A model generated the notes under the pieces. That model was not told where the DNA came from, searched no databases, and was given only the letters and a program-made list of their open reading frames with translations. Shown here in pieces: positions 2,804 to 18,626 of a stretch of DNA of 42,083 nucleotides. Made by a program: the position numbers and the translations under genes. Positions within the stretch are counted from its first letter, which is position 1. Each line of letters opens with the position of its first letter. The DNA is from an uncultured Bacilli bacterium (GTDB lineage: Bacteria > Bacillota_I > Bacilli_A > RF39 > UBA660). The stretch covers positions 1 to 42,083 of the forward strand of contig CANQXW010000006.1 of NCBI GenBank assembly GCA_947627925.1, read 5' to 3'.

Positions 2804-5800
2804 TATGATATTTATATTTCTTTTTGATTATTTTTCCATTACTAGTACAAATTAGCACAATAGATACTCCTAATATTAAAGATCCTATTATATATAGAGC
2901 AATCATTTTTGGCGATAACCAAATATTAGATGTTTCATCTGCTACACTAGGATTAGGATCTCGATTAAGAGATTTTTCTAATTCTTTCGCTCTCGTAGTT
3001 CCTTTATTAATAATACCATCTTCTCTATTTTCGGTATTTGGATATGTATGGCCATTTACCTCATTATTAGAAGAGTTATTTTCATTACTATTAGGAATAC
3101 TTACTTCATCATCATCTGAATAATTATTATTGCTACTACTATTGTTATTATTACTATTATTTGAATTACTATTATTACTATTAGCAGAATTATTATTATT
3201 TGAAGATGGAGTATTTATACTACCATTATTAGTATTAGAATTATTGTTAACATGATTATCATTATTCACATTATTATTGTTTTGATTACTACTATTGTTG
3301 TTATTAACGTTATTATCATTAGTATTAGTATCGCTATTATTATTGTCATTACTACTATCATGATTATTATCGTTATTGTTAGTGTTGTTATTATCTGGAG
3401 TAGTTGGTTCGTCCATTCCCGGTTCATCAAATCCTGGTCCATCAAATCCAGGACTACTAGGATTATTTGGTGTACCACTAGGCTTTTCTTCTTTAATCCA
3501 AGTAACTGTTGCGGTTACCCTACCTTCATTACCATAATCATCAACAAATGTGAAAGTGAAACTACCATTTTTGTCAAAAACATGAGTATCACTACCACCA
3601 TTATTCGTAATTTTAATATGCTTACTAGCTTTTACTAATTTAGCTGTTACTGGACCAGTTGTTTCTTCTACAATATCATATTCTACTTCCGCCGTTGGGG
3701 TAGTTTTAGATATAGCATTTTCAAAAAGACTTATGGATGCCGCACTCATAAAGCTTCGACCATCGCCATCACATTCTACACCCACTAACTTAACATACTT
3801 AGTTTCAACTGGACTTGCAAAAACGGCATATTTCGCATTTTTATTTGAAACCCAATTTAGACTATTTGAAGTTTTAACTAAAGTCCAATCATCATCATTA
3901 CCTGTCTCGCTAACATAGATTTCCGCCTTAGTAACAATACCATTAACACCTGATTGACGAGGAACATATTCTAAAGCTGAAATGACTGTAGGTTCCTTAA
4001 GTTCTATAATAAAGTAACGATCTTTATCTGAGCCATCCCAATTAGTATGCCAAACGGTATTTAAATCATCATCCAAAGCATTTTTGGCATCTTGATTTTC
4101 ACTTCGACCTTTTTCTTCAGAAGATACTTTATAAACGTCCAAGTTTTGGGCATCAACATATAAGTATTCATCACTTTCCCCAATGGCAGTAAATTCTAAA
4201 GTCATTGGCTCACTAGCTAAATAATTATCATGGCGTCCTACTCTAATGTCAATATTTTTATTACCCGTTAAATCCGGAGCAACTTCACTTAATTTTTGCC
4301 ATGCGCTATCATCTTCACTCGTAAGTTTCCATTCTACAGCTTCTTTTTTATAGCCGCCCTTTTTATTATTGCCATTTTCAACATCGACATTTATTGTATT
4401 TTCTTTATCACTATAAGCGATTTCCGGAGCTAATATGGCTCTTTCAATCGGAATATCATAAACAGTTTCATTATCGCCAATAATTTTAATTAAAATTTCG
4501 GTTTCTTCATGAATAGTATCTACTTCACTATCCGTAAGTTCATGGGCAAGCCCTTCGACATTAGCACTCCAGTTAAGGCTGTCAAGACTATATTGCCAAA
4601 CCGCACCCTCACTAATAATTTTTTCATTTAACTTAATTTTACCAGCATCATCACCATCAAAGGAGAAGGAAGCCATTTCTTCATGACTATCTAATAGATA
4701 CGTAGCTACTTGCCGAGCCGCCCTTGCTTGGATATAGGCATCATCTGGAAGATTTTTTACTTCTTCTAGAACTTTTTCGGTTAAATTAGCAAGCATTACT
4801 TTATAAGTATCGGTATGCATTTTATTCATAATTTGGTTTAATAAATCATCCATTGGTAAAGGATAATTCTTTAAAGTTTCCGTTATTCTTTTAGCTAAAT
4901 CATAATAATCAGTATCTTTAGATCCTTCCATTGCTTCAATTAAACCAAGCCAAGCATCAAAATTAATTTCTTGAACTTTTAACGCCCCTTCATAAATAGC
5001 TTTTTTAATTTCTTTATCGCTATAAACATCAGCAAGCATTAAAATTTTCTCCGCTTTATTATAATTATCTAAATCATCCCAAGCTGCTTGAGAAAGCAAA
5101 ACATAACTAGCTGGGTAAGATCCGACATAAGAGCCATCACCCCAACCATTAGGCATTCTTACCGAAAGCTTTTCGGTTTTACCTGATTGACCCCAGCCAG
5201 AAACATCATTACCAAGTTCCCAATATTTTTGACCATTTTTAAGAGTCATAAAGATATAAGCGGCATGACCAGGTTGCGAAATAACACTAGATGGTACACC
5301 ATATGAACCATGAATGTTAGAACCGGTTTTGGATAAACCTCCACAAACAGAACCTTCTTCAAACACAATCCATAATTTTGGATAACCTTTTTGATAAGTT
5401 ATTTGATAATCACTTTCGGTGAATATATTTTTATCTTCAAAATATTCTCCATCATTAAAGTGATAAGCGTATTTTAAATTACCATGGGTTTTATTATTCC
5501 ATTCACTTTCTCTCGCTGGATCATAATATTTATCTAAAGTATAATCATAACCAAATTGATAATTGATATAAGAATAAGGGTTTTTACTATTATTTAATCT
5601 GGTAAAATCATTAAGCCATATAATCTCTTCATCATCGATAATATTATTCATGATATAACGCATTTCTTCAATGCTTAAATTCGTAAAGATATCATTCTCT
5701 AATTTACCGGCTTTATATAGCTTTTTATAAATTAAATAACGATCAATGGCATCAGAACCATTAGGATCATGAGGATCTTCTGGAGCTCCACTAATCCAAG

Positions 5801-6905
5801 TACCAACACTAGCGGAATGAGTTAAAGATAAAGTAATAGCCATCTTTTTATATAAAAGGCCATCTTTTTCATCTTCAAAGTCACTACCATAAGTATTGAA
5901 TAAATTTTTTAATAATTCTAAAGAAGTAACATAATTACCATCAGGTTTACCACCAAGTAAATACATCTCTAAAGTTTCTTCATCATCAAAAAGAACATTA
6001 ACAACATCTTGATATTCATTACTATAATTAAATAATGATTGTAAAGTATCATAACCTATTCTCTTAACAAATTCTCTTTTTAATAAAGTTAGATTATAAG
6101 AATCTAAATTAGAAAAATCGCCTTCTTCAATACTGGTTTTATAATCATTAATTTGATTATTATATTCTTCGACTTTACTAATGATTGGATATTCTTGATA
6201 TTCTTTACTATAACCTTCTTTAATAAATTTAGCATCAGCATAAACCGCATCATCATGCCAATGGCTATACCAAGAATTACCATTTTCATCGGCAGCTAAT
6301 CTTAAATAGTTAACTTTAGTTTTTTCTCCAGTTTCGGATTCATTATATAGGCTAATATGAACATAATCAGCTTTATCCCAACCTTTTTTTAATTCTGAGT
6401 TATAAACAGCTTGCCAATCTTCCCCATCCATAGAGGTATAAATGGTAAAACGAACTCCACTGTTATAATAAGTGGAAGTTTGCGCCGCATCAACCCCAAC
6501 ATAAGATTCAAAATAATCATATGGTAAGTTAGAAACATCATAAACTAAATTAGATGTTGCCCATGCGGAAAGCCCTTTAATGAAGGTTCTCGCTTCATTT
6601 TGCCCATCTTCATCAAGGTCTAGATTAACCGTAATAAGACCACTAGAGCTATTTTTATCTTTTCTTAAATAATAACCACTTTTAACAAAAGATTTACTTT
6701 CCACATAATCAATATCGGAAAGATATAAGATATTTTCTGTATCATATGGCAAATTATCAACTCTAGCTAAATATTGGCTATGATCATCGGCCTCAACTGC
6801 TCTATAATAGGCTTTAGTTGATAAAAACATTGTGCAAATAAGCATGCAAGACATAAAACCAAAAATTATATTTTTAAAAATTTTACTTTTAAATAATTTT
6901 TTCAT
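2799..6905 (-). CDS. Large cell-surface protein: signal peptide, NPCBM-like and discoidin (F5/8 C)-like domains, Asn/Ser stalk, C-terminal TM with basic tail
   Basis: N-terminal hydrophobic signal; VRFTIYTSMDGEDWQAVYNSEL; NALDDDLNTVWHTNWDGSDKDRYFIIELKEPTVISALEYVPRQ...KAEIYVS; long N/S/D tract; ALYIIGSLILGVSIVLICTSNGKIIKKK. Confidence 0.75.
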   Translation of the reverse strand: MKKLFKSKIFKNIIFGFMSCMLICTMFLSTKAYYRAVEADDHSQYLARVDNLPYDTENILYLSDIDYVESKSFVKSGYYLRKDKNSSSGLITVNLDLDEDGQNEARTFIKGLSAWATSNLVYDVSNLPYDYFESYVGVDAAQTSTYYNSGVRFTIYTSMDGEDWQAVYNSELKKGWDKADYVHISLYNESETGEKTKVNYLRLAADENGNSWYSHWHDDAVYADAKFIKEGYSKEYQEYPIISKVEEYNNQINDYKTSIEEGDFSNLDSYNLTLLKREFVKRIGYDTLQSLFNYSNEYQDVVNVLFDDEETLEMYLLGGKPDGNYVTSLELLKNLFNTYGSDFEDEKDGLLYKKMAITLSLTHSASVGTWISGAPEDPHDPNGSDAIDRYLIYKKLYKAGKLENDIFTNLSIEEMRYIMNNIIDDEEIIWLNDFTRLNNSKNPYSYINYQFGYDYTLDKYYDPARESEWNNKTHGNLKYAYHFNDGEYFEDKNIFTESDYQITYQKGYPKLWIVFEEGSVCGGLSKTGSNIHGSYGVPSSVISQPGHAAYIFMTLKNGQKYWELGNDVSGWGQSGKTEKLSVRMPNGWGDGSYVGSYPASYVLLSQAAWDDLDNYNKAEKILMLADVYSDKEIKKAIYEGALKVQEINFDAWLGLIEAMEGSKDTDYYDLAKRITETLKNYPLPMDDLLNQIMNKMHTDTYKVMLANLTEKVLEEVKNLPDDAYIQARAARQVATYLLDSHEEMASFSFDGDDAGKIKLNEKIISEGAVWQYSLDSLNWSANVEGLAHELTDSEVDTIHEETEILIKIIGDNETVYDIPIERAILAPEIAYSDKENTINVDVENGNNKKGGYKKEAVEWKLTSEDDSAWQKLSEVAPDLTGNKNIDIRVGRHDNYLASEPMTLEFTAIGESDEYLYVDAQNLDVYKVSSEEKGRSENQDAKNALDDDLNTVWHTNWDGSDKDRYFIIELKEPTVISALEYVPRQSGVNGIVTKAEIYVSETGNDDDWTLVKTSNSLNWVSNKNAKYAVFASPVETKYVKLVGVECDGDGRSFMSAASISLFENAISKTTPTAEVEYDIVEETTGPVTAKLVKASKHIKITNNGGSDTHVFDKNGSFTFTFVDDYGNEGRVTATVTWIKEEKPSGTPNNPSSPGFDGPGFDEPGMDEPTTPDNNNTNNNDNNHDSSNDNNNSDTNTNDNNVNNNNSSNQNNNNVNNDNHVNNNSNTNNGSINTPSSNNNNSANSNNSNSNNSNNNNSSSNNNYSDDDEVSIPNSNENNSSNNEVNGHTYPNTENREDGIINKGTTRAKELEKSLNRDPNPSVADETSNIWLSPKMIALYIIGSLILGVSIVLICTSNGKIIKKKYKYHN
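3120..3410 (-). repeat. Low-complexity trinucleotide-rich tract coding for an Asn/Ser/Asp stalk
   Basis: Runs of AAT/AAC/AGT-type codons (NNNSNNNNVNNDN...). Confidence 0.85.
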
Positions 6906-7075
6906 CTTAAACCCACCTCTTCTTTGTGAATTATATTATATATTATCATATGCCATTTGGCAATGAAATTTAAAAAGATTAAGGCAAATAATGTAAAGGT
7001 AAAACTAGTATATTTTATGGTCTTAAATCTAGTCGTATTAATAATTATCAGTTATAATATTTTTGGTGATTATTT

Positions 7076-7762
7076 ATGGATATCAATTCTCTTCTAAATC
7101 CTTATATTGATTTAAAATATAAAGATTTTCAAAGTAAAATATGTAAAACTAAATATCCAATTTTGGGAGTCAAAATTCCCCTTTTAAGAAAAATAGCTAA
7201 AGATTTGTTAAAACAATATAATTACCAAACTATTTTAGAAAACTTAAATGATGATTCTTTTGAAAGCATCATGCTTGAAGGTTTAATTATAGGTATGGCT
7301 CCCCTTTCTTATGAAGATACTCTATCCTTAATTCAAGAATATCTTCCTAAAATTGATAATTGGGCTTTAAATGATTTATTTTGTAGTAGTCTTAAAATTG
7401 TGAAAGATCACAAAAAAGAATTTTGGCATTTTTTAAAACCTTATTTTAAAAGTAGTAAAGAATATGAATTAAGATTTGCTTTTGTTATCTTGCTTAATTA
7501 TTATTTAGATGATGCCTATTTAGATCAAGTTTTCGAAAAATGTTTAGAAATAAAAAGTGATTACTATTATGTTAAAATGGCTATTTCGTGGTGCCTAGCT
7601 GAATCTTTAAGCCAAAATTTTACCAAAACTACTCTTTTTATGCAACAAAATAAGGCTTATTTTGATTCTTGGACTTACAATAAGGCTTTACAAAAAGGAA
7701 GAGAGTCTTTAAAAATTTCCGAGAAAGAAAAAGCAATATTACAAAAAATGAAAATAAAATAA
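7076..7762 (+). CDS. DNA alkylation repair protein (AlkD-like HEAT-repeat family)
   Basis: GVKIPLLRKIAKDL...IDNWALNDLFCSSLK...AISWCLAESL pattern. Confidence 0.8.
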   Translation: MDINSLLNPYIDLKYKDFQSKICKTKYPILGVKIPLLRKIAKDLLKQYNYQTILENLNDDSFESIMLEGLIIGMAPLSYEDTLSLIQEYLPKIDNWALNDLFCSSLKIVKDHKKEFWHFLKPYFKSSKEYELRFAFVILLNYYLDDAYLDQVFEKCLEIKSDYYYVKMAISWCLAESLSQNFTKTTLFMQQNKAYFDSWTYNKALQKGRESLKISEKEKAILQKMKIK

Positions 7763-7862
7763 ATCTTAAGAAATACTTAATTTGAAAGTAAAAAGTGTTA
7801 AATCAAAGTTCTTTAATTTACTTCTTTAGATAAACTATGATAAAATTAAATTGGTGATTAAG

Positions 7863-8222
7863 ATGGAATGTTTATTTTGCAAAATAATTAAGGGCGAAGT
7901 TCCTAGTTATAAATTATATGAAGATGAGGATGTTATTGTCATTTTAGATGCTTATCCTGATGTTGATGGTCATACTTTAGTAATTCCGAAAAAACATTAT
8001 GATACTTTTAGGGATATTCCGGATGATTTAGTTTTACATATTAATGAGATAGCCAAAAAATATGCTAATCATATTATGGAGAGATTAAATGCTAAAGAAT
8101 TAACCTTAGCGGTTAATTATGGTAATTCCCAAAAGATAAAACACTATCATTTACATTTATTACCTAATCATGGCTTAAGAGCCGAAAAAACTCCTCAAGA
8201 AGTTTATGAGGTTTTAAAATAA
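7863..8222 (+). CDS. HIT family protein
   Basis: CLFCKIIKGEVPSYKLYED...HYHLHLLPNHG; GGTGATT SD before ATG 7863. Confidence 0.92.
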   Translation: MECLFCKIIKGEVPSYKLYEDEDVIVILDAYPDVDGHTLVIPKKHYDTFRDIPDDLVLHINEIAKKYANHIMERLNAKELTLAVNYGNSQKIKHYHLHLLPNHGLRAEKTPQEVYEVLK

Positions 8223-9442
8223 TGGCAAGACTAAAAAAAAGAGTTAAGAAAAAATTAATCTTATTTACTTTTATTTTAGCCGTTATTCTTTTAGGACTAT
8301 TTACTTTTAAATTGGCTTTTAAAGGAAATGACGGAAATGATCATAATCCGATTAAAAACATTTTAGAAAAAGAAGATCCGATTAAAACTTATACCGCTAA
8401 ATTAATTGCCACTGGGGATGGACTTGTCCATTCGCCCCTTTACAATGCGGCTTATAATAGTAGTACCAATACTTATGATTTTAGTAATATGTTAACTTAT
8501 ACCAAAGAAAAACTTCAAGGTTATGATATTAAATATTACAATCAAGAAACAGTTTTTGATACTTCTTCTAAACCTAGTAGTTACCCTATTTTTAATACGC
8601 CAAGTGCTTTTGGTCAAAATATGATTGATGCGGGCTTTAATTTAGTTAGTCTTTCTTCTAATCATTCCATGGACATGGGAGCAAATGGAGCTCGGTTAAG
8701 TGCGGAATGGTGGGAAGGTCAAAATGATATTTTAGCTACGGGTATGGCTTCATCAGAGGAAAAAAGAAATGAACATAAAATAATGAATGCCAATGGAATT
8801 ACTTATACTATGCTTTCTTATACCTATGGCACTAATGGTCTAGGGGGAAGTGCCATTGCAAATGAACCTTATTTAGTTAATCTTTTCTCAGAAGAAGCAG
8901 CCTTAGAAGATATTGCAGCTGTAAGAGATAAAGTCGATATTTTAATTGTTTCCATGCATTGGGGCGATGAATACAAGCAAACGGCGACTGAAAAACAAAG
9001 AGCTCAAGCCAAATTTTTAGCCGATAATGGCGTGGATATTATTTTAGGAACCCACTCTCATTGTATTGAACCTTGGGAATGGATTGATGATACAGTTGTT
9101 TTCTACTCTTTTGGTAATTTTATCTCTAACCAAATGGGCGCAGAACAAGCTTTGGTGCGAAAAGTTGGGGTTGTCGGGATGTTTGCCACATTAGATATTA
9201 CCAAAACTGTGGATACCGAAAATGATACCACGACGATTAAAATTGATAATATTGGGGCTGATTTAAACTATAGCTATCGTTATTACAATAATAACATTCA
9301 TAAAAATGATTATTTAGTAATTCCTTTTAGTAAAATGGAAAGTAAATATTTAAATAATTATGAATCTGTCTATAATGAATTTAGTGAAGTTTTAAAAACT
9401 TATGACAGCAATATTAATATTGAACCCCTTCCAAGCATTTAA
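8222..9442 (+). CDS. CapA family protein (poly-gamma-glutamate/capsule metallophosphatase-like)
   Basis: N-terminal TM; ATGDGLVHSPLY...LSSNHSMDMGANG...VSMHWGDEY...IILGTHSHCIEPWEW...FYSFGNF. Confidence 0.88.
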   Translation: MARLKKRVKKKLILFTFILAVILLGLFTFKLAFKGNDGNDHNPIKNILEKEDPIKTYTAKLIATGDGLVHSPLYNAAYNSSTNTYDFSNMLTYTKEKLQGYDIKYYNQETVFDTSSKPSSYPIFNTPSAFGQNMIDAGFNLVSLSSNHSMDMGANGARLSAEWWEGQNDILATGMASSEEKRNEHKIMNANGITYTMLSYTYGTNGLGGSAIANEPYLVNLFSEEAALEDIAAVRDKVDILIVSMHWGDEYKQTATEKQRAQAKFLADNGVDIILGTHSHCIEPWEWIDDTVVFYSFGNFISNQMGAEQALVRKVGVVGMFATLDITKTVDTENDTTTIKIDNIGADLNYSYRYYNNNIHKNDYLVIPFSKMESKYLNNYESVYNEFSEVLKTYDSNINIEPLPSI

Positions 9443-14987: not shown

Positions 14988-15016
14988 TTGTCAATTTCTT
15001 TATCCTGTTGTATAAT
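14988..15016 (+). promoter_or_regulatory. SigA promoter of small RNA, module 1
   Basis: TTGTCA (14988-14993), 17 nt, TATAAT (15011-15016). Confidence 0.8.
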
Positions 15017-15022
15017 CGTATT

Positions 15023-15100
15023 AGGAGACGAGAAATCGTTGCCCATGGTTAATTGACTATCTTATTTGGATTTTAACCCAAATAGAGATAGCCTTTTTTT
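15023..15100 (+). ncRNA. Candidate antisense small RNA (about 78 nt), module 1
   Basis: Starts about 7 nt after TATAAT; ACGA-GAAA-TCGT hairpin; terminator CTATCT.TATTTGG...CCAAATA.AGATAG + T7; antisense to the 3' end of the 31-aa ORF. Confidence 0.65.
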
Positions 15101-15157
15101 ATGCTTTCGCAAGAAAAAAAGTATTACTTTTAAAAAGTCTAAGACTCTTAATTTCAT
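15062..15157 (-). CDS. Candidate small hydrophobic/basic toxin-like peptide (31 aa), module 1
   Basis: MKLRVLDFLKVILFFLRKHKKRLSLFGLKSK*; SD-like AAGGGGGTGG upstream; N-terminus matches module 2 (MKL...FLKVxxFL). Confidence 0.55.
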   Translation of the reverse strand: MKLRVLDFLKVILFFLRKHKKRLSLFGLKSK

Positions 15158-15319
15158 TCAACCACCCCCTTCAATTGATTTTGGACTTTCCAAAACCCCC
15201 TGAAAGCGGGCAAGACCTCTCGTCTCGACTTACTATTAAAACACAAGTATTACCTAAAAGTCCATAGAAGATTTTGACAACATTTGTCGATATTTCTTTT
15301 ATTTTGTCGAAAACCATCT

Positions 15320-15342
15320 AAAAAGGAAGCATTTGCTTCCTA
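15320..15342 (-). terminator. Intrinsic terminator after the 411-aa gene
   Basis: Minus: AGGAAGC-AAAT-GCTTCCTTTTT. Confidence 0.75.
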
Positions 15343-15371
15343 ATTCAATATATTTAAATATTATATGTTAT

Positions 15372-16607
15372 TCAAGTGAGTAAATATGGACTATGAATTG
15401 TTCCTTTACCTTCAATTTTTATCTCAGAGTCTAAATAAAATACCGGTCGGACAATCCAAGACATACCACAGTCATACCAAGTGTACAACTGGCTGCCAGT
15501 ATTGATAATCGACCACGGGTAGGTGCAAGAAGTGTATTGATACCTGCTCATTGTCCACTCTTGATTTTTGATTGTACCTGATACTCCAGGCCCTGTATTT
15601 TCTCTACCATTTAATCCATTTGCTATACTAAGCCAGTTATCAGTACTCATTTGTCCATTATTCGCATATAAATAGTCACTTACATACATTAAACTTATCA
15701 TACCATTTTCAAAGTTTTTGCTTCTTTCTTCTTGAAATGATGTTGGGTTACTACTTGATGGTGAATCTCCAATGTAATATGTTGTTGGTGATATCCATTT
15801 TGTCCACTTTTCTTCCTGCATATAACTATATTTGCTATTTCCTATGAATATATTAGGATACTTCGATGTATTTGTACTTGTTCCGTTTAATCTCTTATAT
15901 AAATCTGAATTTGGCCAGGTTATATTTGAACAGGTATTGTGCCACGCAAAGGTACTTGTGCTTCCATTGACTAATGCTGTTGCTTTGATAATTTTTAATC
16001 TTCCATTTATATCTATTCCCATTATTCGATACATGTATAAATCCATATTGTCTTCACATGTATCTTCATTATCTGTTCCAAAACATATGAAGTTATCTAT
16101 TACTTCATCTTTTGTTCCGATAAATCTTCGCAAATCATCTTTAACATTGCCGGTTATTGTTTTGTTTCTTTCTGCTAAATCATTTGCTGTTTCTAATGTA
16201 CCTCCTGAGGAGTTTTTATCTATTATACTTGCTGCATTACCTGTTGAGCCACCCGAAGTACCTGGCGTCTTTCCAAAGTATAATGAACAATATATGGTTT
16301 TATTTGATGTTATGGTTGCGGTATGACTAGCATTATCAAATTCTAATACTTCTTCTGCGGGTACTTCTACATGATTACCATAATAACATTCTGCTTTTTC
16401 ATATTCTTTGTCCGTTGGCCATGACGTCATTCCTTCTTGTAATTCGCCATCTATATAATAGGCTAAGGTACTTTTGTTTTTTATATTTTCTTTATAACTT
16501 ACTTTATTTATTTCTTTATTATTAAATGTTTTAAATGTTAAACACATTATAGGTATTTCTATTATTAATAATGTTATTAATACTATTTTATATATTTTCT
16601 TCTTCAT
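15372..16607 (-). CDS. Secreted/surface protein, DUF6273-like C-terminal module
   Basis: N-terminal hydrophobic segment; FICFGTDNEDTCEDNMDLYMYRIMGI...MSWIVRPVFYLDSEIKIEGKGTIHSPY. Confidence 0.6.
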   Translation of the reverse strand: MKKKIYKIVLITLLIIEIPIMCLTFKTFNNKEINKVSYKENIKNKSTLAYYIDGELQEGMTSWPTDKEYEKAECYYGNHVEVPAEEVLEFDNASHTATITSNKTIYCSLYFGKTPGTSGGSTGNAASIIDKNSSGGTLETANDLAERNKTITGNVKDDLRRFIGTKDEVIDNFICFGTDNEDTCEDNMDLYMYRIMGIDINGRLKIIKATALVNGSTSTFAWHNTCSNITWPNSDLYKRLNGTSTNTSKYPNIFIGNSKYSYMQEEKWTKWISPTTYYIGDSPSSSNPTSFQEERSKNFENGMISLMYVSDYLYANNGQMSTDNWLSIANGLNGRENTGPGVSGTIKNQEWTMSRYQYTSCTYPWSIINTGSQLYTWYDCGMSWIVRPVFYLDSEIKIEGKGTIHSPYLLT

Positions 16608-16612
16608 TACCT

Positions 16613-17341
16613 TTATCCCTCCACTTTATTAAAATAGGCATAACATAAATCTGGCACTTTATATTTTGCTTTTAATTTATTATTTTTATATGTTATCTCT
16701 GTTTGGGTGGATGTGTCTTTATTATTACATTCATAACTATCTAATTTATATCCACTCTCTGGTATCTCTTGGATTGTATATTTCTTTCCTTCTTTTTCTT
16801 TGACTATTGTTCCTTCATTTGATTCTACTAATGCTATAACATTTATATCTCCATTTAATTGATCATATTTACTAAAGTCAATTTTATAATATAACCTACA
16901 TACTATTTGATGAGGTTTATCTTCACTTACGGTTATTTTTAAATTTCCTTTTTCATCAAATCCATAATTACTATACTTTACTTTATCATTATCTAGTTCA
17001 CTTTCTTTGGGTATACAATTACTCTTACTTTTTACTAAGGTATATTCTTTTATATCTATGGGTGCTGTTTCTAATACGACATATTCTTTGGGATTAAATA
17101 TATCTTGAATATAATATAGTAAGTTTATATCAGTATTAGTATCTAATGGTGTTGTATCTCCTTTAGCAAATTCTCCTATCTTAGTACTTAATATAGGTAG
17201 TTCATTATTACTACTGTAATAAGCATAAGAATTATGTGATGAAATAAGCCAAATAACTTGGACTATAATTACTAATGAAATTATTATTAAACTTTTATAT
17301 TCTTTAATAACATTTAAGATTTTGTTTTCCTTTATTTTCAT
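16613..17341 (-). CDS. Secreted/surface protein with TasA/pilin-like N-terminus
   Basis: Hydrophobic N-terminus then HNSYAYYSSNNELPILSTKIGEFAKGD; 5 nt from the 411-aa gene (operon). Confidence 0.55.
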   Translation of the reverse strand: MKIKENKILNVIKEYKSLIIISLVIIVQVIWLISSHNSYAYYSSNNELPILSTKIGEFAKGDTTPLDTNTDINLLYYIQDIFNPKEYVVLETAPIDIKEYTLVKSKSNCIPKESELDNDKVKYSNYGFDEKGNLKITVSEDKPHQIVCRLYYKIDFSKYDQLNGDINVIALVESNEGTIVKEKEGKKYTIQEIPESGYKLDSYECNNKDTSTQTEITYKNNKLKAKYKVPDLCYAYFNKVEG

Positions 17342-17387
17342 TTAACCATCCCTTTGTGTTTATAATACCGAATACAGATAACAACTA

Positions 17388-17494
17388 AAAATAATTTATG
17401 TTGACAACTACATAAATACTTCTATTCTTCTTATCTTATATGTTTATTATATAACACCCCCCCCGATGTCAAGTTTTGGATTTTATTTTGTTGA
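17388..17494 (-). repeat. Dispersed repeat copy B: cassette promoter/leader with G8 spacer
   Basis: Near-identical to bp 1-107. Confidence 0.92.
17446..17472 (-). promoter_or_regulatory. SigA-like promoter with poly-G spacer driving the 242/411-aa cassette
   Basis: Minus: TTGACA (17467-17472), TCGGGGGGGGTGTTA (15 nt), TATAAT (17446-17451). Confidence 0.8.
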
Positions 17495-17530
17495 TAAGTT
17501 GTACAAGATTTAATGCTAATTAAATCCAAT

Positions 17531-17559
17531 TTGTCATCTATATCAAAATATGTTATAAT
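17531..17559 (+). promoter_or_regulatory. SigA promoter of small RNA, module 2
   Basis: TTGTCA (17531-17536), 17 nt, TATAAT (17554-17559). Confidence 0.8.
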
Positions 17560-17565
17560 CTTATT

Positions 17566-17643
17566 AGGAAACGAGAAATCGTTGCCCAAGGTTATTTTGC
17601 TATCCTACTCGGAACTCAATCCGAATAAGGATAGTCTTTTTTT
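17566..17643 (+). ncRNA. Candidate antisense small RNA (about 78 nt), module 2
   Basis: ACGA-GAAA-TCGT hairpin; terminator CTATCCT..TCGGA-ACTCAA-TCCGA..AGGATAG + T7; stem covaries with copy 1. Confidence 0.65.
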
Positions 17644-17707
17644 GTTTTGTCATTTGACTCGACAGAAAAATTACTACTTTTAAAAATCCGAAGATATTTA
17701 ATTTCAT
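17600..17707 (-). CDS. Candidate small hydrophobic/basic toxin-like peptide (35 aa), module 2
   Basis: MKLNIFGFLKVVIFLSSQMTKQKKTILIRIEFRVG*; SD-like AAAGGGGTGG. Internal start used in place of the 65-aa track ORF. Confidence 0.55.
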   Translation of the reverse strand: MKLNIFGFLKVVIFLSSQMTKQKKTILIRIEFRVG

Positions 17708-17870
17708 CAAAACCACCCCTTTCAATTGATCTTGGTCTTTCCAAAACCCCCTGAAAGTGGGCAAGACTCCTCGTCTCGACTTACTATTAAAACACAAGTA
17801 TTACCTAAAAGTCCATAGGAGATTTTGACAACATTTGTCGATATTTCTTTTATTTTGTCGAAAGTCACAT

Positions 17871-17893
17871 AAAAAGGAAGCAAATTGCTTCCT
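17871..17893 (-). terminator. Intrinsic terminator after recX
   Basis: Minus: AGGAAGCAATTTGCTTCCTTTTT, overlapping the recX stop. Confidence 0.7.
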
Positions 17894-18626
17894 AAGTACG
17901 AAATCCTTTTTGCCATAAGGCTTTTTTTAAACGATATTCAAGTTCATCGCCTTGATATTTTTTAGATAGTTTATTTTTTAACTTTTGATATTCTTTTTCA
18001 TAAATATCTTGATTATCGAAAAAGGTAAATTCATTCATAATTAAATCAATATCTTCTTTATAAAAACCTAAATTATATAAATCGTTAGTAATTTTTTGAT
18101 TTAATAATAGACCCGATAAATTATGATTAGCTTGAATTTTTTTCGTAATATATTTTCTTATCTTACTTTGCCATACTTCACTTTCAAAAGTATTTAAATA
18201 GTTATTTATATCTTTATCTTTAAAACTCATTTTTTTAAGTTCATAACCTATTTTATTAGGCCCTACTAATTTTAAATTAACTGAATCATTAATATAAGCT
18301 TTAATATAAACTAGATCATTAAGATAACCTTCTCTTTTTAATCTATCAATAGTATAACTAATAGCTTTTGCATCATAATCTTTTAATTTCTTTCTGATCT
18401 CTTTTTCGGTTCTTAATTTAACATTTAAATACTTTAAAGCACTATAATAACTTTCTAAAAAGCTATTATCTTTGATGATTTCTTTTAAAGTTTTTTCATC
18501 TATTTCTTTTTTTAATAATAGTTCATATTTTAAAATAATATCATCATATAAATTTAATTTGGAATTATTAGAAAAAGTAATTTCATATAAATTACTTTTT
18601 TTCTTTTTATAACTTTTTATCTCCAT
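17892..18626 (-). CDS. recX: Regulatory protein RecX
   Basis: ALKYLNVKLRTEKEIRKKLKDYD...IDRLKREGYLNDLVYIKAYI...ALWQKGF. Confidence 0.88.
   Translation of the reverse strand: MEIKSYKKKKSNLYEITFSNNSKLNLYDDIILKYELLLKKEIDEKTLKEIIKDNSFLESYYSALKYLNVKLRTEKEIRKKLKDYDAKAISYTIDRLKREGYLNDLVYIKAYINDSVNLKLVGPNKIGYELKKMSFKDKDINNYLNTFESEVWQSKIRKYITKKIQANHNLSGLLLNQKITNDLYNLGFYKEDIDLIMNEFTFFDNQDIYEKEYQKLKNKLSKKYQGDELEYRLKKALWQKGFRT

Follow-up and report, generated by a model that had tools for sequence, protein, structure and literature searches.

A poly-G tract spacing the hexamers of a cassette promoter in an uncultured gut Bacilli bacterium, a probable member of a multi-copy set of phase-variable promoters

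On the minus strand of a contig from an uncultured Bacilli bacterium, a run of eight Gs separates two consensus promoter hexamers ahead of a two-gene cassette, and the question raised by this locus is whether the tract is incidental, a constant element of a fixed promoter or the adjustable part of a phase-variable one. The window, i.e. the whole stretch of 42,083 nucleotides that was analysed (contig C6, G+C content of 28.5%), belongs to an assembly of 1,155,885 bases in 56 contigs, in which all genome-wide work was done by pattern searches. Between 17472 and 17446 the minus strand reads TTGACA-TCGGGGGGGGTGTTA-TATAAT with a spacer of 15 nt, exactly as the initial annotation had described it, and the accompanying arithmetic (15 nt for G8, 17 nt for G10) is correct. 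The ATG of the 242-aa gene lies at 17341, approximately 105 nt downstream of this promoter. The best explanation is that the site belongs to a genome-wide set of sigma-A-type promoters spaced by poly-G. We hold it highly probable that these form a phase-variable set in which the tract sets the distance between the -35 and -10 hexamers, with one dial per paralogous surface gene. The features of the locus are given in Table 1.

Table 1. Position and basis of the features identified in the window.
Feature	Position	Strand	Basis
-35 hexamer TTGACA	17467..17472	-	sequence
Spacer G8 run, where slippage is proposed	17457..17464	-	sequence
-10 hexamer TATAAT, after a 15-nt spacer	17446..17451	-	sequence
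Conserved module of promoter and 5'-leader	17340..17502	-	94-98% identical repeats elsewhere in the genome
5'-leader dyad ATTTATGT...ACATAAAT	17394..17417	-	sequence, and folding against shuffled sequences
Gene A (242 aa) with a membrane anchor at the N terminus and a SYAYYS...LSTKIG motif	16613..17341	-	four paralogs behind the same promoter
Gene B (411 aa) with a membrane anchor at the N terminus and a variable region followed by a VRPVFYL motif	15372..16607	-	sequence, paralogy
Intrinsic terminator after gene B	15324..15341	-	sequence
Repeat element upstream of the promoter	17554..17896		sequence repeats
Second copy of the same repeat, downstream of the cassette	15011..15343		sequence repeats
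Second promoter copy, TTGACACC-G8-TGTTA-TATAAT, at the contig end	59..85	-	sequence; continues into contig C10

The pattern search of the whole assembly detected eight sites of this first promoter family with both hexamers perfect, two with G8 and six with G9, which correspond to seven loci if the starts of contigs C6 and C10 are a single locus. Among most of these copies the surrounding module, up to 163 bp in length, is 94-98% identical. The initial annotation had missed the copy at 85-59 as well as the multi-copy and genus-wide nature of the promoter. A second design, TTGACA-10 nt-G9-TATAAT with a spacer of 19 nt, was found at four sites, preceding secreted proteins of 477-498 aa. The genome contains 12 runs of at least eight Gs, every one in a promoter spacer between TTGACA and TATAAT (8 of the first family and 4 of the second design), when approximately 0.55 runs of at least eight G/C are expected at this genome size under an independent-base model using the composition of the window. 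The proposal that the G8 run between the hexamers is not incidental is thus upheld. The broader pattern applied to the genus recovers the same 12 sites, the reversed-pattern control gave no match in this assembly, and two G7 runs fall outside promoters. At G000:C49:2024-2053, the sequence TTGACA-...GGGGAGGGG-TATAAT (spacer of 18 nt) is perhaps a tract locked by the interrupting A. A pattern scan of IMG/VR gave 17 scattered matches, which formed no coherent family and included no additional copy of the window locus.

The same two-gene cassette is headed by a first-family promoter at five loci (C5, C6, C8, C10 and C26); in C10, the continuation of the site at the end of the window carries G9 and heads one of these cassettes. 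The gene A family comprises proteins of 226-242 aa that share a membrane anchor at the N terminus and the SYAYYS...LSTKIG motif, the four paralogs behind the same promoter being 41-91% identical, and the gene B family comprises proteins of 411-448 aa where complete, with an N-terminal anchor, a sequence that is variable toward the end and a terminal VRPVFYL. We infer from the anchors, the paralogy and the families found in sister species that both genes encode surface proteins. No Pfam or NCBIfam model was above its cut-off on genes A and B or on the surface proteins of the sister species, a profile search of solved structures gave no match, and the predicted structure of gene B was poor (mean pLDDT of 52.6), its comparison with the PDB yielding only matches at chance level. 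The copy in contig C4, with G9, heads a type VII secretion operon (G000:C4:35650-42500; L043, L299), in which EssC was identified by NCBIfam TIGR03928 above cut-off, together with an FHA domain; a phase-variable type VII secretion system would be a separate finding in itself. No open frame was found downstream of the copy in contig C7, which counts against the phase-variable reading.

Another A/B cassette (L306, G000:C9:6000-22000) is adjoined, at 3544-9413, by a diversity-generating retroelement, with an Avd-like protein (bAvd and DivGenRetAVD, both below cut-off), a reverse transcriptase (RVT_1) carrying an IGNMTSQ motif and a 129-aa protein with a MutS domain I. Two template-like repeats, at 5681-5773 and 6901-6989, resemble the 3'-terminal part of the adjacent gene B; a third is present at L038 5129-5236. 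For the gene B paralog adjacent to the retroelement, 10 of the 14 differences are at template adenines, and adenines likewise account for most differences in the paralogs L040 and L047. The window's gene B, although paralogous to this apparent target, does not itself show the adenine-biased pattern of a target: against the three templates found, its differences are at 7/19 A and 13/21 G and are not confined to adenines.

To what extent the tract could act on transcription depends on the spacing preferred in this genome. Among the 28 tract-less pairs of perfect TTGACA and TATAAT hexamers, the spacer is 17 nt in 13 cases, 18 in 8, 16 in 3 and 15 in 2, spacers of 14 and 21 nt being also found, and two paralogous A/B cassettes devoid of a tract have spacers of exactly 17 nt. 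Since tract-less promoters peak at 17 nt, G8 is 2 nt short, G9 is 1 nt short and G10 would be optimal, in line with the initial annotation. The spacings observed with a tract are 15 and 16 nt in the first family and 19 nt in the second design, and they extend from 13 to 20 nt in the sister species. Slipped-strand mispairing during replication would add or remove Gs, and the spacing would thereby shift (G8 = 15, G9 = 16 and G10 = 17 nt) toward or from the optimum of approximately 17 nt, which would raise or lower transcription of the gene downstream. This arithmetic predicts that expression would be graded and not switched strictly on or off. With an own copy of the promoter on many paralogs and on the type VII operon, the subset of them expressed would be random from cell to cell, heritable and reversible. 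The evidence includes neither reads, transcripts nor start sites. The occurrence of replication slippage, its effect on transcription and the resulting diversification of the cell surface are all inferred.

In four sister species, 99 tract promoters were located and the downstream genes were read as far as the contigs permitted. These genes belong mostly to large paralogous families of N-anchored proteins, and the distance from promoter to start codon is near-constant per family, at 30 nt in G034, 65-66 or 31 nt in G017 and 56 nt in G035; the distances are more varied in G023 (22, 31 or 174-181 nt). In G034, the 33 promoters have tracts of 6 (one promoter), 7 (seven), 8 (nineteen), 9 (four) and 10 Gs (two), with the -10 side identical in 33/33 and the -35 side in 31/33. 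As the two hexamer sides are near-invariant and the lengths range from 6 to 10, it is the tract that varies in a promoter that is fixed elsewhere. Across the genus, the search for TTGAC-(1-12)-G6+-(0-12)-TATAAT yielded 413 sites (the sum over the per-genome table) in 28 of the 38 genomes, with none in the reversed-pattern control; the tracts are mostly G6-G10 and the hexamers are constant. Runs of at least eight Gs occur in 35/38 genomes, and in several of them the counts of tract promoters and of G runs are nearly equal (32/32, 32/33 and 38/40). The related public genomes are rabbit-gut 'uncultured Bacilli' MAGs, and a position of the lineage within an RF39-like group is inferred. At the family level, 42 of 193 genomes match, spread over 41 of 148 genera; spacer sequences differ greatly in the other genera, whose tracts reach G16. 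A stricter pattern was nearly absent from a broader sampling of the class (4/395 genomes).

These counts bear on the hypothesis that a dispersed repeat merely happens to hold a G run. The promoter module is indeed a dispersed repeat and the adjacent element is repeated too, but the hexamers and the tract are kept in species with diverged flanks, the genes downstream nearly always encode N-anchored or secreted proteins, and 413 matches stand against 0 in the control. Chance and hitch-hiking are contradicted by these controls, and we give them practically no weight.

Similar promoters were noticed elsewhere. In G284, tract promoters (L295-L298) precede proteins of 650-687 aa ending in W.RGG...SFRLVLAP-like segments, which resemble by eye a C-type-lectin variable region; a reverse transcriptase was not found in the G284 assembly. 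Three Faecalibacterium species have several promoters of the form TTGACAC(C)-G7 to G10-TATG[CT]-TATAAT (L075, L083, L088, L096, L108, L110, L120, L132, L134, L137 and L165), in which this design seems to have arisen independently, and the readable genes (L096, L108, L120 and L134) are lipoprotein-like frames starting approximately 80 nt downstream. Multi-copy TTGACA-Gn-TATAAT promoters were also seen in Candidatus Ancillula (L077, L080, L091 and L127) and in a goat-gut Clostridia MAG (L152 and L156), in the latter ahead of proteins resembling by eye surface proteins of the camelysin/TasA type; in both, the tracts have about 9-13 Gs.

The leader downstream of the window promoter contains a dyad that is present in copies of this genome and, with a different sequence, in a sister species. 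Its folding exceeds that of shuffled sequences only weakly (z of -1.5 in the window and -2.3 in another copy), and it is a possible leader hairpin or operator. A search of Rfam with the window and the region matched neither a riboswitch nor a known leader. This dyad and the conserved A-rich block upstream of the promoter are as expected of a regulated promoter, and they favor a fixed design, in which a G tract of about 8 would be kept for DNA shape or for the binding of a regulator and the length changes would be incidental; the modal length of 8 in most species points in the same direction. Against such a design, lengths of 6-10 are found among otherwise identical copies, the same kind of tract occurs in a second promoter family with another spacer sequence and tract position, and the quite different spacers and the tracts up to G16 of the other genera show more freedom of flanking sequence and length than a common binding site would allow. 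We therefore regard the fixed design as improbable. It remains that the majority of the copies in the genus, at G8 with a spacer of 15-16 nt, could represent a selected low-level promoter instead of active switching.

Tract length thus varies between copies and between species, and within one locus of one sample its variation could be traced only indirectly, via contig overlaps. When reversed, the first 146 bases of the window contig C6 match the initial 147 bases of C10, the sole difference being one G (G8 versus G9), and the sequence upstream of this site has no other occurrence in the genome. Overlaps of 146 and 147 are exactly 2k-8 and 2k-7 at k=77, as predicted for G8 and G9 alleles in an assembly graph, the value of k being itself inferred and not documented. 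We infer an unresolved G8/G9 bubble, which would mean that the reads of a single locus contained both lengths, although no reads were seen and stutter is possible. In such a case a contig is predicted to end at a distance of 77 bases, measured from the far side of the short tract, or of 78 for the longer allele; in four species 7 of the 45 contig ends near a tract are at 77/78 bp, versus 0.35 expected. Three of these seven are left-hand ends (C10 in G000, C18 and C63 in G017), for which a paralog is an unlikely cause because their upstream sequence is unique among the promoters compared; the other four lie on the right, where the contig could break likewise at a paralog that differs in tract length but shares the downstream sequence.

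The same data could also be read as errors of sequencing, PCR or assembly in a difficult homopolymer whose real length is uniform. Nearly all of the genomes are fragmented metagenome assemblies, Illumina data are error-prone in G tracts (PMC9187656) and PCR or Illumina stutter can also produce a G8/G9 bubble, so that the C6/C10 bubble by itself could be stutter. However, the lengths differ between paralogs within long contigs and between species, and the existence and position of the tract do not depend on its exact length. An artefact appears very improbable to us, even more so than the fixed design. Taken together, the copies, the tract variation, the spacer norm of 17 nt and the contig overlaps are in agreement with the phase-variable promoter proposed in the initial annotation.

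The repeat element that flanks the window cassette on both sides, in direct orientation, has at least six copies in the genome and more in the sister species. It reads as a short peptide, hydrophobic then basic (MKLNIFGFLKVVIFLSSQMTKQKKTILIRIEFRVG), behind a strong ribosome-binding site, and a putative convergent RNA whose extended -10 promoter lies at 17531-17559 and whose end is a hairpin followed by T7 (z of -2.7). No Rfam match was obtained for it. The element is a candidate type I toxin-antitoxin system and not part of the switch. An invertible-promoter switch of the Mycoplasma type, in which one promoter between recombinase inversion sites serves several cassettes, was rejected, since each cassette has its own sense-oriented promoter and the window cassette lies between direct and not inverted repeats.

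If the spacer-tract reading is extended to the whole family of small-genome gut Bacilli, the promoters may constitute a combinatorial surface generator, in which up to dozens of tracts per cell would slip independently, controlling paralogous surface proteins as well as type VII secretion, in genomes that also have a retroelement rewriting the variable end of proteins of this family. We offer this extension only tentatively, as a possibility that we would not yet favor. If true, the choice of expression and the binding specificity would be diversified separately in the same type of cassette. At up to 40 copies per genome, and with their occurrence in many genera, the tract promoters look like a main regulatory layer in uncultured gut commensals, and the surface phenotype (phage receptors, immune targets, adhesion and perhaps type VII effectors) could differ among clonal cells in the healthy gut. 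Tract lengths can be counted directly from existing metagenomic reads and, with constant hexamers and many copies, the curve relating length to expression could be read from one metatranscriptome.

Phase variation by promoter spacers is known mostly from single genes in host-adapted pathogens. The literature searched, which left out most subscription papers and preprints, yielded no description of promoters of this kind for RF39-like lineages or Faecalibacterium. The principle is a known one, of the porA kind; the scale, the lineage, the control of a secretion operon and the family-wide recurrence appear undescribed in the searchable literature. Spacer tracts are mentioned merely in passing in the work on Bifidobacterium (PMC9187656). 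In Bifidobacterium breve, slippage of a G tract controls a surface structure of a gut commensal, the sortase-dependent pili, but the tract is in the coding sequence and acts via the reading frame (PMC9187656). The vpma and mba families of Mycoplasma and Ureaplasma are likewise surface gene families switched randomly in small AT-rich genomes, by DNA recombination or inversion (PMC2268961, PMC3047005) and without a spacer tract. The tpr genes of Treponema pallidum have poly-G tracts of varying length upstream of a paralogous surface-protein family, whereas in tprL at least the tract overlaps the -10 region and leaves the spacing unaltered (PMC7864442). Of the two Neisseria genes to which the initial annotation had compared the locus, opc is the looser match: a homopolymer tract also tunes the transcription of a surface protein, but it is a poly-C tract that encompasses the -35 region and not the spacer (PMC7864442), so it is not the same design. 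The comparison with porA of Neisseria meningitidis is apt. There, as in the window, a poly-G tract lies between the -35 and -10 hexamers ahead of a surface antigen (PMC3639595), and a spacing cut below 17 nt abolishes transcription (reviewed in PMC7864442; porA in PMC3639595). porA is a single gene, whereas in the gut Bacilli, for which there is no functional test, 8-40 copies per genome head paralogous families, plus a type VII operon.
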